From positions 5,580,325 to 5,644,324 of the forward strand of contig NZ_UPHU01000001.1 in NCBI RefSeq assembly GCF_900566075.1: a DNA stretch of 64,000 bases, read 5' to 3'. Origin of the DNA: Mycobacterium pseudokansasii (GTDB lineage Bacteria > Actinomycetota > Actinomycetes > Mycobacteriales > Mycobacteriaceae). Under the pieces are notes generated by a model that worked only from the letters and a program-made list of their open reading frames with translations, was not told where the DNA came from and ran no database searches. Both the position numbers and the translations under genes were made by a program. Below, in pieces: positions 56,716-62,186 of this stretch. The first letter of the stretch is position 1. Each line of letters starts with the position of its first letter.

Positions 56716-58356
56716 TCAGGCCCCAGTAGCAACCTGACTGGCACGCACCTCATCGGCGGGTCGCGCTTCGGTCTGCTCCTTGGCCCACCGGTAATCCGGC
56801 TTACCGGCCGGTGACCGCTTCACCTCGTCGACGAACCAAAGGCTGCGCGGCACTTTGTATCCCGCGATAAGACCGCGGACGAAGCCGTCCAGCTCGGCCA
56901 GTGACGGACGGCACCCGGGCCGGGCCTGCACCACGGTCGCCACCTGCTGGCCGTACCGGGGATCGGGCACCCCGACCACCAGAGCATCGAAGACGTCGGG
57001 ATGCCCCTTTAACGCGGCCTCGACCTCTTCGGGATAGATCTTCTCACCGCCGCTGTTGATCGACACTGAGCCGCGGCCCAGCATGGTGACCGTTCCGTCC
57101 GCCTCAACCATGGCGTAGTCACCCGGAATCGCATACCGCACACCGTTAATCGTCTTGAACGTCTCGGCGGTCTTCTTCTCGTCCTTGTAATAGCCGACCG
57201 GAATGTTGCCCTTCTTCGCGATCATGCCACGCACCCCGGAGCCGGGCTGCACTTCGTTGCCGTCCTCGTCGAGGACCACCGTCCGGTGGTCGATGGTGAC
57301 TCGCGGACCCCCGTTCTGCGAAGCGCCGGCAGCGACAATACTGGTACCACCAAACCCGGTCTCCGACGACCCAATTGAGTCGGTGATAACCCGATTCGGA
57401 AGCAGCTCAAGCAGTTTCTGCTTGATGCTGGGCGAGAACAGAGCGGCGGTGCTGGCCAGCAGGAACAGCGACGACAGATCGTAATCATGTTCTCTGTCAA
57501 GCGCATCCAGCAACGGCCTGGCCATCGCGTCACCGGTGAAGAACAATAGGTTCACCCTATGCTTCTCGACCGTGCGCCATACCTCCTCGGCGTTGAATTC
57601 CGGTTCCAGAACAGTAGTTTGGCCGGAAAAGATGGACATCCAAGTGGCAGATTGGGTGGCGCCGTGGATCATCGGCGGAATCGGATAGCGGATCATCGGC
57701 GAGTTCGCGGCGGCGGCCTTGGCCAGGTCGTACTCGTCCTTGACGAATTCTCCTGTCGCAAAATCGGTTCCGCCGAACAGCACGCGGTAGATGTCTTCGT
57801 GGCGCCACATCACACCCTTCGGAAAGCCCGTGGTGCCACCCGTATACAGCAGGTAGATGTCGTCAGCACTTCGCTCACCGAAGTCACGCTGCGGCGAGCC
57901 CTGCTCCAACGCGGCGTAGAACTCCACTCCCCCGTAGCGGTCAAAGTCAGCCTCGCTACCGTCCTCCACAACGAGGACGGTCTTGACATTGGGGGTGTCC
58001 GGCAGCACATTGGCGACCCGGTCGGAGTACTGGCGTTCGTGAACCAGTGCAACCATGTCGGAATTGTCGAAGAGGTACCCCAGCTCGCCCTCGACATAGC
58101 GGTAGTTGACGTTGACCAGAATGGCGCCGGCCTTCACGATGCCGAGCATCGCGATGACGATCTCATTGCGGTTGCGGCAGTAGAGTCCGACCTTGTCGCC
58201 CTTCTGCACTCCCTGATCGAGCAGGTAGTGCGCCAGGCGGTTGGCTTTCTCCTCGAGTTGGGCGTAGGTCAGCTGCTCATCTCCGCAGATGAGCGCTACC
58301 CGGTCAGGCACCGCGTCGATGGCGTGCTCAGCGAGATCGGCAATATTCAGGGCCAC
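56716..58356 (-). CDS. fadD19: Steroid-24-oyl-CoA synthetase FadD19
   Basis: This 546-residue ANL-family ligase starts at GTG 58356 ([20 protein letters not shown]), where family similarity begins. Motifs: [78 protein letters not shown] and the catalytic Lys in [14 protein letters not shown]. It corresponds to Rv3515c, which activates cholesterol-derived C24 carboxylates. Divergent from echA19 across a KstR-type operator. Confidence 0.94.
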
Positions 58357-58367
58357 GGACCCCAAAC

Positions 58368-58381
58368 TAGAACGTGTTACA
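58368..58381. promoter_or_regulatory. KstR-type operator between fadD19 and echA19
   Basis: TAGAACGTGTTACA is identical to the operator at 48384-48397. It lies 12 bases upstream of the fadD19 start and 46 bases upstream of echA19, so it can control both divergent genes. Confidence 0.82.
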
Positions 58382-58426
58382 TTTCTTGACAAGCTCGGAC
58401 CCATTGTCGACGGAGAGGCGGTAACC

Positions 58427-59239
58427 GTGCCCCAGGCTTCAGCAAACGAACAAACGGGTCCTGACGCGCTGGTGGAGCAGCGCGGTCACACGCTGGTCGT
58501 GACCATGAACCGGCCGCACGCCCGCAACGCGCTGAGCAGCGAAATGATGCAGATCATGGTCGAAGCCTGGGACCGCGTCGACAACGACCCCGACATCCGA
58601 TGCGCCATCCTCACCGGGGCAGGTGGCTACTTCTGCGCCGGGATGGACCTCAAGGCGGCAACCAAGAAGCCGCCGGGTGAGTCGTTCAAGGACGGCAGCT
58701 ACGACCCGTCACGCATCGACGCCCTGCTGAAAGGTCGCAGGCTGACCAAACCGTTGATCGCCGCCGTCGAAGGCCCCGCGATCGCCGGTGGCACCGAGAT
58801 CTTGCAGGGCACCGATATCCGGGTCGCCGGGCAAAGCGCGAAGTTCGGCATCTCCGAGGCCAAGTGGAGCCTGTACCCGATGGGCGGTTCCGCGGTGCGC
58901 CTACCCCGCCAGATCCCCTACACCGTGGCCTGCGACCTGCTGCTGACCGGACGGCACATCACCGCCGCCGAGGCCAAGGAGATGGGCCTGATCGGGCACC
59001 TGGTGCCCGACGGGCAGGCCCTGACCAAAGCCCTCGAACTCGCGCAAACCATCGAGAACAACGGCCCGCTCGCCGTGCAGGCAATCCTGCGGACCATCCG
59101 CGAGACCGAAGGCATGGCCGAAAACGACGCGTTCAAGATCGACACCCAGATCGGTATCAAGGTCTTTCTGTCCGACGACGCCAAGGAAGGCCCGAAGGCA
59201 TTCGCCGAGAAACGCAAACCCAACTTCCAGAACCGCTAG
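58427..59239 (+). CDS. echA19: Steroid enoyl-CoA hydratase EchA19
   Basis: The 270-residue crotonase has oxyanion blocks [14 protein letters not shown] and [22 protein letters not shown] and a catalytic Glu-type region [20 protein letters not shown]. It corresponds to Rv3516, which hydrates cholesterol side-chain enoyl-CoAs. GTG 58427 is chosen because GGAGAGG lies 8 bases upstream; it adds a few residues relative to M. tuberculosis. Confidence 0.92.
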
Positions 59240-59245
59240 TTTTCG

Positions 59246-59301
59246 CGAACGTGCACTCAGCGCGAAAAGCCGGCCAGAATCTCGCAAGGACTACACGCTC
59301 G
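59246..59301. repeat. Palindromic repeat element, copy A, upstream of the DUF559 gene
   Basis: This 56-base imperfect inverted repeat begins CGAACGTGCACTCAGCGCGA and ends ACACGCTCG; arms of 22 bases pair with about 7 mismatches around a GGCC-containing loop. It is a direct repeat of copy B (60166-60224) at the other end of the DUF559 gene. Confidence 0.75.
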
Positions 59302-59336
59302 GCGAAGGTGTCGGCAGGCCGCGGCACACTGCGGCC

Positions 59337-60401
59337 ATGCAAGAACCCTTCGTTGGCAGTGAAGCCCTCGCGGCTCACATCCTGACGCCATACCGCCTGC
59401 GCAGCCGATTCACCGCAATCCATCCGGACATCTACGTCACGACCGGCACCGAACTCGATGCCATCACACGCGCTCGCGCCGCTTGGCTATGGTCGCGGCG
59501 CCGCGGGATCGTGGCCGGGCATTCCGCGGCGGCGCTGCACGGCGCCAAGTGGATCGACAATCGGAGCCCAGCCGAACTGCTCTACGACTATCGCCGTCCG
59601 CCAACCGGGGTACATACGTGGTCGGATGCAGTTGCCGAGGACGAGATCCAACGCATCGCCGGCATGCCCGTCACCACAGCAGCCCGTACCGCACTCGACC
59701 TCTCATGCCGGTATCCGGTCGGAAAAGCAGTCGCTGCCATCGATGCCCTTTGTCGCGCAACCGAACTCAAGATCCCCGACGCCGAGTTGCTCGCCGAGCG
59801 TTATCGGGGACGTCGCGGCATCAGACATGCCCGTACCACACTGAATCTGGTCGACCCGGGCGCGGAGTCTCCCCGCGAGACGTGGCTGCGTCTCATACTG
59901 ATCCGGGCCGGTTTTCCAAAGCCACAGACGCAGATCCCGGTTTACGACCGATACGGACAGCTGGTCGCGGTTCTCGACATGGGCTGGCAGCACATCAAGG
60001 TCGCGGTGGAGTACGACGGCGACCACCATCGCACCGACCGAAGGCAGTTCAGTAAGGACATCAGACGCGCCGAGACCATCGCTGAGTTGGGCTGGATCAA
60101 CGTCCGCGTCACCGCTGAGGACACCGAAGGCAGCGTCATCTGGCGACTGTCCGCCGCGTGGGATCGCCGAACGTGCACTCAGCGCGAAAATGACTCAGAA
60201 TCTCGCAGCGACTGCACGTTCGGCGAACGGGATCAGCCCCGAACCGGCGCACTAGGCGTGAACACCACCGGCATCGACTCCAAGCCGCTGACGAAGTTCG
60301 CCGGTCGCAGCGGCAACGCATCCGAAGACGCCAGCCGAAGGTCGGGCAGCCGCCGCAGCACCCGCTCCGTCATCAACGATAACTCCAAGCGTGCCAGTTG
60401 A
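59337..60401 (+). CDS. AbiEi-like HTH plus DUF559 (PD-(D/E)XK) nuclease-fold protein, Rv3517-like
   Basis: The product is 354 residues. Residues 1 to about 100 resemble the AbiEi-type winged helix of actinobacterial antitoxin-like proteins (EALAAHILTPYRLRSRFTAIHPDIYV). Residues about 178-275 form a DUF559/Vsr-like nuclease fold with candidate catalytic residues Glu181, Asp214 (VLDMGW) and Glu225-Tyr-Asp227 (VEYDGDHH), then DIRRAETIAELGWINVRV. The natural end is near residue 278 (AAWDRR), the size I recall for Rv3517. Here the stop is absent, and the frame reads through palindrome copy B and 169 bases into the antisense of cyp142. Function unknown. Confidence 0.78.
   Translation: MQEPFVGSEALAAHILTPYRLRSRFTAIHPDIYVTTGTELDAITRARAAWLWSRRRGIVAGHSAAALHGAKWIDNRSPAELLYDYRRPPTGVHTWSDAVAEDEIQRIAGMPVTTAARTALDLSCRYPVGKAVAAIDALCRATELKIPDAELLAERYRGRRGIRHARTTLNLVDPGAESPRETWLRLILIRAGFPKPQTQIPVYDRYGQLVAVLDMGWQHIKVAVEYDGDHHRTDRRQFSKDIRRAETIAELGWINVRVTAEDTEGSVIWRLSAAWDRRTCTQRENDSESRSDCTFGERDQPRTGALGVNTTGIDSKPLTKFAGRSGNASEDASRRSGSRRSTRSVINDNSKRAS
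60166..60224. repeat. Palindromic repeat element, copy B, at the 3' end of the DUF559 gene
   Basis: The outer arms GCCGAACGTGCA and TGCACGTTCGGC pair perfectly over 12 bases; further inner bases also pair, giving a strong hairpin. Most of its 59 bases match copy A. It starts precisely where the conserved protein ends (after AAWDRR) and lies just beyond the cyp142 3' end, so it could also act as a terminator. Confidence 0.8.
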
Positions 60402-61438
60402 TTGCCCAGACAGAAATGCGTGCCGAACCCGAATGCCAAGTGGCTGTTCGGGTTTCGGCAGACGTCGAACTTCTCCGGCTCAGAGAACACCGCCTCGTCG
60501 AAATTCGCCGACTCAAACAACAGCATCATCTTCTCGCCGGCCCGCAACGCCGTGCCATGAAAGTCAGTATCCGCCGTGAGCATTCGGCACATGTTCTTCA
60601 CCGGCGAGGTCCAGCGCAGCATTTCTTCCACCGCCGAAGGCAGCAACGACGGGTCATGCTGCAACAGGTCCCATTGGTCCCGGTTACGCAGCAGCTGCTC
60701 GGTTCCCCCGCTCAACGTGTGCCGCGTGGTTTCGTCGCCGCCGATCAGAATCAGCAGCGTCTCCATGACGAGCTCGTCGTCGCTGAGCCGCTCCCCGTCG
60801 ACTTCGGAACGCACCAGCACCCCGACCAGATCCTCGGTCGGCTCCGCACGACGCGCCGCAATCGTCTCGCGGGTGAAGTCGTTGTAGGCCGCGAAGGCAT
60901 CCATGCTGATCTGGAAATCCTCTTGCGACACATGTGAACTCAGAAACGTCACCAGGTCGTCGGACCACTTCAGGAACATGTCGCGCTGCTCCGGGCGCAC
61001 CCCGAGCATGTCGCCGATCACCGCCATCGGCAACGGCGCGGCAAGATCCCGCACGAAGTCGCATTCACCGCGTTCGCACACCGCGTCGATCAACGTGTCG
61101 CACAGCGCCGCAATCGATTCCTCGCGGTCGCGCACCCGCTTGCGGGTAAAGCCGGCGTTAACCAGCTTGCGCCGCAGCAGATGTGCGGGGTCGTCCATGT
61201 CGATCATCATCGGCATGGCCGGCTGGTCGGGACGGATACCGCCGGCGCTGGAGAACAGCTCGGGCTGTCGTTCGGCGTCGATCACCGCCTGGTAGGTGGA
61301 CGCCGCGGCCAGCCCGTTGCGGTCCCGAAAGACCGGCTGATGCGTCCGCATCCACCGGTACGCCGCGCGTGCCTCACGGCCGGCGTAGAAGGTGCCGTCG
61401 GTCAAATCGACGTCAGGCCTACCAACGGCTTCAGTCAT
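60233..61438 (-). CDS. cyp142: Cytochrome P450 Cyp142 (cholesterol/cholestenone C26 oxidase)
   Basis: This 401-residue P450 has the I-helix oxygen motif LIGGDETTRH (231-240), the EXXR-type EEMLRW, and the heme-binding FGFGTHFCLGNQLAR with Cys343 as iron ligand. It corresponds to Rv3518c, which oxidises the terminal side-chain carbon of cholesterol. ATG 61438 has GGAGG upstream. FdxD could supply electrons. It overlaps the read-through tail of the DUF559 frame. Confidence 0.94.
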   Translation of the reverse strand: MTEAVGRPDVDLTDGTFYAGREARAAYRWMRTHQPVFRDRNGLAAASTYQAVIDAERQPELFSSAGGIRPDQPAMPMMIDMDDPAHLLRRKLVNAGFTRKRVRDREESIAALCDTLIDAVCERGECDFVRDLAAPLPMAVIGDMLGVRPEQRDMFLKWSDDLVTFLSSHVSQEDFQISMDAFAAYNDFTRETIAARRAEPTEDLVGVLVRSEVDGERLSDDELVMETLLILIGGDETTRHTLSGGTEQLLRNRDQWDLLQHDPSLLPSAVEEMLRWTSPVKNMCRMLTADTDFHGTALRAGEKMMLLFESANFDEAVFSEPEKFDVCRNPNSHLAFGFGTHFCLGNQLARLELSLMTERVLRRLPDLRLASSDALPLRPANFVSGLESMPVVFTPSAPVRG

Positions 61439-61453
61439 GCCAGTCCTCCGCAT

Positions 61454-61466
61454 TACAGTGAGCGTC
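61454..61466 (+). promoter_or_regulatory. Leaderless-type -10 element (TACAGT) for the Rv3519-like gene
   Basis: TACAGT at 61454-61459 ends 7 bases before ATG 61467, with no ribosome site between. The same hexamer precedes the Rv3489-like gene at 30014. Confidence 0.5.
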
Positions 61467-62186
61467 ATGGCCGTCTCGCAACACACCATCGCCGGCACGG
61501 TGCTCACCATGCCGGTCCGAATCCGCAAAGCGGACATGCACTCCGCGATGTTCTCGGTGCCCGTCGCGCCGACACAGCGCCTCATCGACTACAGCGGCCT
61601 GACGGTGTGCGAGTACCTGCCCGGCAAGGCGATCGTGATGCAGATGCTGGTGCGCTACGTCGACGGCGACCTCGGCCAGTACCACGAATACGGCACCGCG
61701 GTCATGGTCAATCCGCCCGGCTCCCACGCCCGACGAGCCAGGGGTCCGCGCGCCCTCAGCAGAGCCGCGGCGTTCATCCACCACCTGCCGGTCGACCAGT
61801 CGTTCACGCTCGAGGCCGGCCGCACCATCTGGGGCTTCCCGAAGATCATGGCGGACTTCACCGTTCGCGAGGGCGCCGGATTCGGCTTCGACGTCAGCGC
61901 CGACGGGCAGCTCATCGCCGGTATCGAGTTCAGCAACGGACTTCCGCTCCCCACCAGAGGCGCGCAAACGCTGAAAACCTATTCGCACCTCGACGGGGTG
62001 ACCCGGGAGATTCCGTGGGAGATGCGCATGACCGGCCTGCGGGCCAGGCTTGGCGGCGCCCGCCTCCACCTGGGCGACCACCCCTACGCCAAGGAGCTGG
62101 CTTCGCTGGGCCTGCCCAAGCGGGCGCTGCTGTCGCAGTCGGCGGCCAACGTGGAGATGACCTTCGGCGACGCGCACGCCATCTGA
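61467..62186 (+). CDS. Acetoacetate decarboxylase-like conserved protein (Rv3519-like)
   Basis: The product is 239 residues from ATG 61467 (MAVSQHTIAGTVLTMPVRIRKADMH). The acetoacetate decarboxylase-type beta fold is suggested by MHSAMFSVPVAPTQRLI, RTIWGFPKIMADFTV and PWEMRM. The position of the catalytic Lys is compatible with GFPKIMAD, the block surrounding it in that family. It lies among cholesterol genes, divergent from cyp142 by 28 bases. Function not established. Confidence 0.78.
   Translation: MAVSQHTIAGTVLTMPVRIRKADMHSAMFSVPVAPTQRLIDYSGLTVCEYLPGKAIVMQMLVRYVDGDLGQYHEYGTAVMVNPPGSHARRARGPRALSRAAAFIHHLPVDQSFTLEAGRTIWGFPKIMADFTVREGAGFGFDVSADGQLIAGIEFSNGLPLPTRGAQTLKTYSHLDGVTREIPWEMRMTGLRARLGGARLHLGDHPYAKELASLGLPKRALLSQSAANVEMTFGDAHAI

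Follow-up and report, generated by a model that had tools for sequence, protein, structure and literature searches.

A predicted AbiEi-nuclease fusion gene between two related palindromes in Mycobacterium pseudokansasii: a candidate REP/RAYT-like partnership

Why should a gene for a predicted nuclease stand between two copies of a palindrome? The question is raised by a 64,000-nucleotide stretch of the Mycobacterium pseudokansasii genome (contig NZ_UPHU01000001.1, positions 5,580,325 to 5,644,324; hereafter the window), in which a gene encoding an AbiEi-like region fused to a nuclease domain is bracketed by two related elements. The arrangement recalls repetitive extragenic palindromic (REP) sequences and their REP-associated tyrosine transposases (RAYTs), which the accessible text of PMC3116915 describes as single-copy, distinctive genes flanked by their own repeat and co-varying with dispersed repeats. 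We lean towards reading the gene and its palindromes as a REP/RAYT-like partnership with an unrelated, non-HUH enzyme, which would recognise the palindrome while copies of the latter spread in trans. The broader proposal, that palindromes dispersed throughout the phylum are recognised and propagated by AbiEi-EDxHD nuclease fusions, independently of the HUH-based REP/RAYT systems and as a convergent lifestyle, is one that we consider possible and put forward tentatively. Sequence comparison gives strong support to a RAYT-like association between this nuclease family and palindromes of its own, one that reaches further than the original prediction, made from the window alone, had seen.

The gene and its two flanking elements

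Two related elements are confirmed to bracket the gene. The upstream element, copy A (59243..59306), and the downstream element, copy B (60164..60227), are each about 63 bp long and have in common one stretch of 23 nt that is identical and one of 32 nt that is 88% identical. The window was scanned with R1, a model built from 23 sequences that include both copies, so that their own scores are not independent; strong matches were found only at A (60.2 bits, 59243-59305) and B (64.6 bits), with the next at 13.1 bits. Each had been predicted to be an inverted repeat, which holds for B and, for A, only as a relic, since B folds and A no longer does: the 24-nt arms of the near-perfect copy B are 83% complementary, with a folding z of -5.55, whereas the degenerate copy A (z +1.19) folds no better than shuffles and its hairpin has decayed. 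With at most one mismatch, the 12-base arm occurs 6 times in the window against 1.14 expected, a number that 0/100 shuffles reach. Among 23 window-type palindromes, 12/24 stem pairs have changed on both sides (13/500 shuffles reach 12), and covariation is 0.194 versus 0.114, exceeded by 0/500 shuffles, which do not remove relatedness.

The gene itself lies on the forward strand, as an open reading frame (ORF) with a conserved part of 282 codons (59337..60182). Residues 1-173 (59337..59855) make up an AbiEi-like region presumed to bind DNA, and residues 176-280 (59862..60176) an EDxHD/Vsr-like nuclease domain with the acidic residues E181 (59877-59879), D214 (59976-59978), E225 (60009-60011) and D241 (60057-60059). 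The Pfam matches of the window protein stay under the curated cut-offs (MTES_1575, 25.7 bits; DUF559, 16.3), and a sequence search of the PDB with the N-terminal part alone gave no match. The predicted structure, with a mean pLDDT (predicted local distance difference test) of 95.2, has the AbiEi fold at its N-terminus, fused to an EDxHD/Vsr-like nuclease; the nuclease part also has a profile match to solved structures, with the fold and the conserved catalytic-type acidic residues of EDxHD/Vsr-like nucleases. As the Pfam matches are sub-threshold, we assign the nuclease fold from the structure model and this profile match. The model supports the earlier reading of the protein as AbiEi plus nuclease, with EDxHD/Vsr-type enzymes as the nearest nucleases, and we describe it as a predicted nuclease.

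When 75 members of the family were scanned against Pfam (E 0.001), five families were matched, MTES_1575 (65), DUF559 (30) and three AbiEi families (12, 11 and 1), with no match to a transposase family. The HUH/Y1 tyrosine transposase domain that characterises RAYTs (Pfam Y1_Tnp) was thus absent from the matches.

The downstream palindrome was predicted to stand at the end of the conserved protein, and copy B does overlap the final conserved codons of the gene. The gene does not end there: the frame has no stop codon before B and runs on to 60401, giving a tail of about 73 codons beyond the homologous end, the longest among the 90 loci of the genus, and 60183-60401 is antisense to the end of the neighbouring cytochrome P450 gene.

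Flanking pairs, palindrome types and solo copies

Flanking pairs recur well beyond the window. For 113 of the 120 loci considered, the 300 or so bases ahead of the gene were compared with a similar length behind it (L080, L083, L097, L112, L116, L145 and L160 were dropped for short flanks); the loci are the best-scoring ones and not a random draw, and those of the genus include 60 further places taken in approximate list order, with a few places skipped that were broken, at contig ends or already included. Flank similarity reached at least 20 at 70/90 loci of the genus and 13/23 elsewhere in the phylum, against 7/112 shifted flanks (Fisher p 6e-25 and 0.0012, respectively) and 510/12656 mismatched pairs; like RAYTs, these genes are flanked by their own palindromic repeat. 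The threshold was chosen after the scores were seen, and the corresponding counts for genus, rest of phylum and shifted flanks are 59/90, 12/23 and 1/112 at 24, and 75/90, 15/23 and 27/112 at 16. Control genes reached 20 in 1/32 cases in the window and 2/76 in loci with solo palindromes, and AbiEi genes without a nuclease had flank pairs in 0/10.

Homologues were found in 41/41 genomes of the genus searched (E 1e-30) and in 43/149 genomes of a phylum sample (E 1e-15), and none was found at E 1e-15 in G089, the only listed genome that represents a different genus of the same family; a search for related loci with the window protein returned 2 loci, both from Mycobacterium. In M. pseudokansasii itself, homologues stand at nine places, at four of which they are decayed, and several have their own repeat on both sides. 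The decayed or partial homologues stand at G000:C1:2698338-2698780, which is still between window-type palindromes, and, on the same contig, at 5700305-5701113, 6002437-6003246, which has no flank pair, and 1015630-1016046.

The type of palindrome follows the protein clade. When the upstream flank of one locus is compared with the downstream flank of a second, their similarity grows with protein identity, also at non-syntenic sites: among non-syntenic ordered pairs, which are non-independent and count related loci repeatedly, the flanks are similar in 52/2878 at 45-50% identity, 68/2624 at 50-55%, 57/1000 at 55-60%, 56/252 at 60-65%, 18/42 at 65-70%, 10/16 at 70-80% and 1/2 above 80%. Same-genome pairs, meaning those among the 90 sampled loci and not every copy per genome, never reach 65% identity (0/123, highest 61%) or share a palindrome at score 25 (0/123), against 159/3882 between-genome pairs that reach 65%; in the sampled pairs each genome has a single copy of each type, as is the case for RAYTs. 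A double-hairpin type of palindrome (GTGCGGCTGGCCGCAC-like) goes with a protein clade of its own (L220, L225, L125, L130, L132, L135).

Palindromes also stand alone. Those of the window type are dispersed over about 20 places in M. pseudokansasii (43 matches, both strands counted). For the L033 type there are 13 matching places (E 0.01), 11 of which are distant from its gene, and in G048, a genome that does not belong to the genus, one homologue has a palindrome with 15 matching places, all but two (13) away from the gene in question. Dispersed cognate repeats number tens, not hundreds, whereas a high number is expected of the repeats that accompany RAYTs. Palindromes spread without relation to the gene had been named in advance as an outcome that would undermine the pairing; most copies are indeed solo, as REPs are, yet their type follows the clade. 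Window-type matches have a median of 33 in the 20 genomes with a protein of at least 60% identity and of 13 in the 21 others (p 4e-4), a comparison that counts both strands, ignores phylogeny, includes the partial gene of G008 in the first group and has exceptions, and to which we therefore give little weight. Gene orientation was taken from a GC-frame gene finder (L283, of 40 places, was excluded for a contig end): of 45 solo places, 24 are flanked by convergent genes, 16 by tandem and 3 by divergent ones, with 1 inside a gene and 1 unclassified, while the other gaps of more than 30 nt in the same loci (n=24) are 1 convergent, 16 tandem and 7 divergent.

This preference for convergent gaps (24/45 against 1/24) is one of the points in favour of an account in which nothing moves, the upstream palindrome being an autoregulatory operator and the downstream one a terminator. 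In addition, the accessible part of PMC3985639 describes a Streptococcus AbiEi that binds inverted repeats extending to 23 bp and represses its own promoter, and next to the upstream palindrome lies TGTCGG-N10-CACACT (59309..59330, forward strand), a conserved spacer that resembles a promoter and stands directly ahead of the start codon. We nevertheless consider this account unlikely; it leaves unexplained the clade-tracking sequence common to both flanks, the dispersed copies, the missing pairs at 10/10 AbiEi genes that lack the nuclease, and the retention of the acidic residues in the nuclease. An operator alone or a terminator alone was rejected on the clade-specific sharing at both flanks, though either function may be served in addition.

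The locus and its counterparts in other species

The gene stands between an enoyl-CoA hydratase gene, here a landmark (echA19-like, 58289..59239, forward strand), and a cytochrome P450 gene convergent with it (cyp142-like, 60233..61585, reverse strand), both ORFs named by gene order, with a fadD19-like gene presumably preceding the former. The order matches echA19-Rv3517-cyp142 in a table of PMC6429209, and the available portion of PMC8386458 reports a deletion in lineage 3 that removes Rv3516 and Rv3517. At the start of the gene, the hexamer [CTG]ANNNT lies 4-12 nt ahead of the start codon in 79/90 loci (a loose pattern, counted without a shuffle control) and a Shine-Dalgarno-like 4-mer in 3/90; judging from these bases, the transcript of the window gene may be leaderless.

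The echA19-cyp142 junction was compared across 30 loci, of which 11 have a full-length gene of the same clade, 8 are empty with cyp142 adjacent, and 8 are uninformative, being contig ends or having other neighbours; the remainder are L194, whose gene was matched partly in a one-frame test, L202, with a gene of another clade, and L200, with a remnant. One palindrome is present at 7 of the 8 empty sites, belonging to several families, and none at L203, as assessed by eye and folding; L196 folds only weakly above shuffles (z -1.5), yet has an R1 match.

Sites with and without the gene bear on a homing cassette, in which the nuclease would cut solo palindromes and repair would insert the gene with a second palindrome, so that the gene, and not the palindrome, spreads. 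Among the sampled same-genome pairs, no genome has two copies of a type (0/123), the solo palindromes examined remain unoccupied, and the single palindromes at empty sites, since they are of several families, may be independent arrivals; we find homing rather unlikely. At two other junctions, types were likewise assigned by eye. At the C1:6190449 junction, the window type is present at 13 of 30 loci and other types at 8, with no palindrome at 9, and at a third junction the L033 type alternates with another, with several loci unresolved. As the junctions hold differing types across loci, different palindrome families have made use of the same places over time.

Two further candidates were rejected. 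Clean excision at the L257 junction was one; the one short site, L312, resembles instead an internal deletion in which a remnant is left. The other was that L241-L244, which have some 1.2 kb or more of additional sequence, are filled sites, as no DUF559 gene was found there; at L241 and L242 the extra DNA, about 1.2 kb without a DUF559 gene, lies where other species have a solo palindrome. The flanks of L066/L185 against the other echA19 loci, of L138/L141, of L162/L163 and of L170/L176 suggest the same intergenic site with the nuclease gene reversed, by inversion or by replacement between palindromes, with a protein identity of just 49-56% in two cases. By eye, inserted DNA apparently interrupts a palindrome at two loci, at L180 the one that follows echA19 and at L186 the one that follows the nuclease gene.

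Several observations weigh against the REP/RAYT-like partnership. Comparison of close relatives brought to light no clean case of a gained palindrome. Absence of the palindrome from homologous loci that keep the gene had also been named beforehand as a contrary outcome, and of the 12 gene-bearing echA19 sites scanned with R1 (L194 included), 9 have two palindromes and 3 (L186, L190 and L191) just one of the window type. Flank scores fall under the threshold at 20/90 loci of the genus and 10/23 others; of the four decayed copies in M. pseudokansasii, which lay outside the 120 loci and two of which were unscored, L031 has no pair (score 15), while L032 has one by eye. Copy numbers of the window type in its own genome are low for REPs, and many matches occur in genomes without a protein of at least 60% identity (G013, 48; G029, 57; both strands). 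Finally, recognition, cutting and copying, and with them binding, cleavage and movement, are steps that we infer.

Proposed mechanism and relation to known systems

In the partnership that we favour, the AbiEi-like part would recognise the long, imperfect palindrome by its clade-specific sequence, a natural inference because the Streptococcus AbiEi binds inverted repeats (the described part of PMC3985639, as above). The EDxHD/Vsr-like part would nick or cut at the palindrome, and repair or replication at the cut would give rise to palindrome copies at other sites, mainly the 3' ends of genes. Copies that have spread would persist and might double as terminators, and the nuclease gene, with roughly a single copy of each type in a genome, would rarely move and be kept between two palindromes.

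The original prediction had also called the unit possibly defence-related, and this part gained no support, in an analysis that did not extend to defence-island context. PADLOC returned AbiEi-type matches and a weak mREase_II match, and tblastn with the window protein as sole query, which more distant family members would escape, matched 2/50,697 phage records at E 0.001, neither with a coverage of 80%, and 5/72,556 plasmid records at E 1e-8, of which one reached that coverage. Defence or self-marking, in which the palindromes hold or inhibit a nuclease that acts on foreign DNA without them, has the AbiEi ancestry and the restriction-like fold in its favour; set against these few phage and plasmid matches, and predicting neither the placement at gene ends nor the clade tracking, it seems to us very improbable.

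If the partnership is real, it would explain a class of dispersed mycobacterial palindromes and give an uncharacterised family, present in every genus genome searched, a DNA target; a REP-like lifestyle would then have arisen twice with unrelated enzymes. The clade-specific palindromes are ready-made matched and mismatched substrates, so the idea is directly testable. No description of the pairing of gene and palindrome was found among the titles and abstract openings listed by the literature searches, with most subscription journals outside their reach. The same searches found nothing on RAYTs together with REP sequences in mycobacteria or on DUF559 in mycobacteria, and what they returned on DUF559 with palindromic repeats was unrelated, judging by title. 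The available text of PMC2267715 describes the M. tuberculosis stem-loop families Myt-1 and Myt-8, and some of the palindromes studied here, compared by description only, may have been listed among these families before, with the nuclease not included.

Among known systems, REP or REPIN (REP doublet forming a hairpin) sequences and their RAYTs, which are IS200/IS605-like tyrosine transposases, share with the present system an enzyme gene between its own palindromes, a single distinctive copy per type, dispersed extragenic copies, and co-variation of enzyme and repeat (for the RAYT side, in the accessible text of PMC3116915). They differ in that the enzyme here is an AbiEi-EDxHD/Vsr-like fusion without a Pfam transposase match, and the elements are about 63 bp long with arms of about 24 bp and occur in tens of copies. 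CGTC-tagged REPs, which are said to have no transposase of their own, are likewise dispersed palindromic repeats (PMC3733652); the main text, as far as it is available, never names mycobacteria or actinobacteria, and the likeness is one of description, not of sequence. Unlike the AbiEi antitoxins and regulators of type IV toxin-antitoxin systems, the AbiEi-like part is here fused to a nuclease, with palindromes on both sides and dispersed, and no AbiEii-type toxin follows it in the window because the next gene is the convergent P450. With the EDxHD/Vsr-like nucleases, including the homing endonuclease I-Bth0305I, the protein shares its C-terminal fold and conserved acidic residues, but here these belong to a free-standing gene between palindromes.
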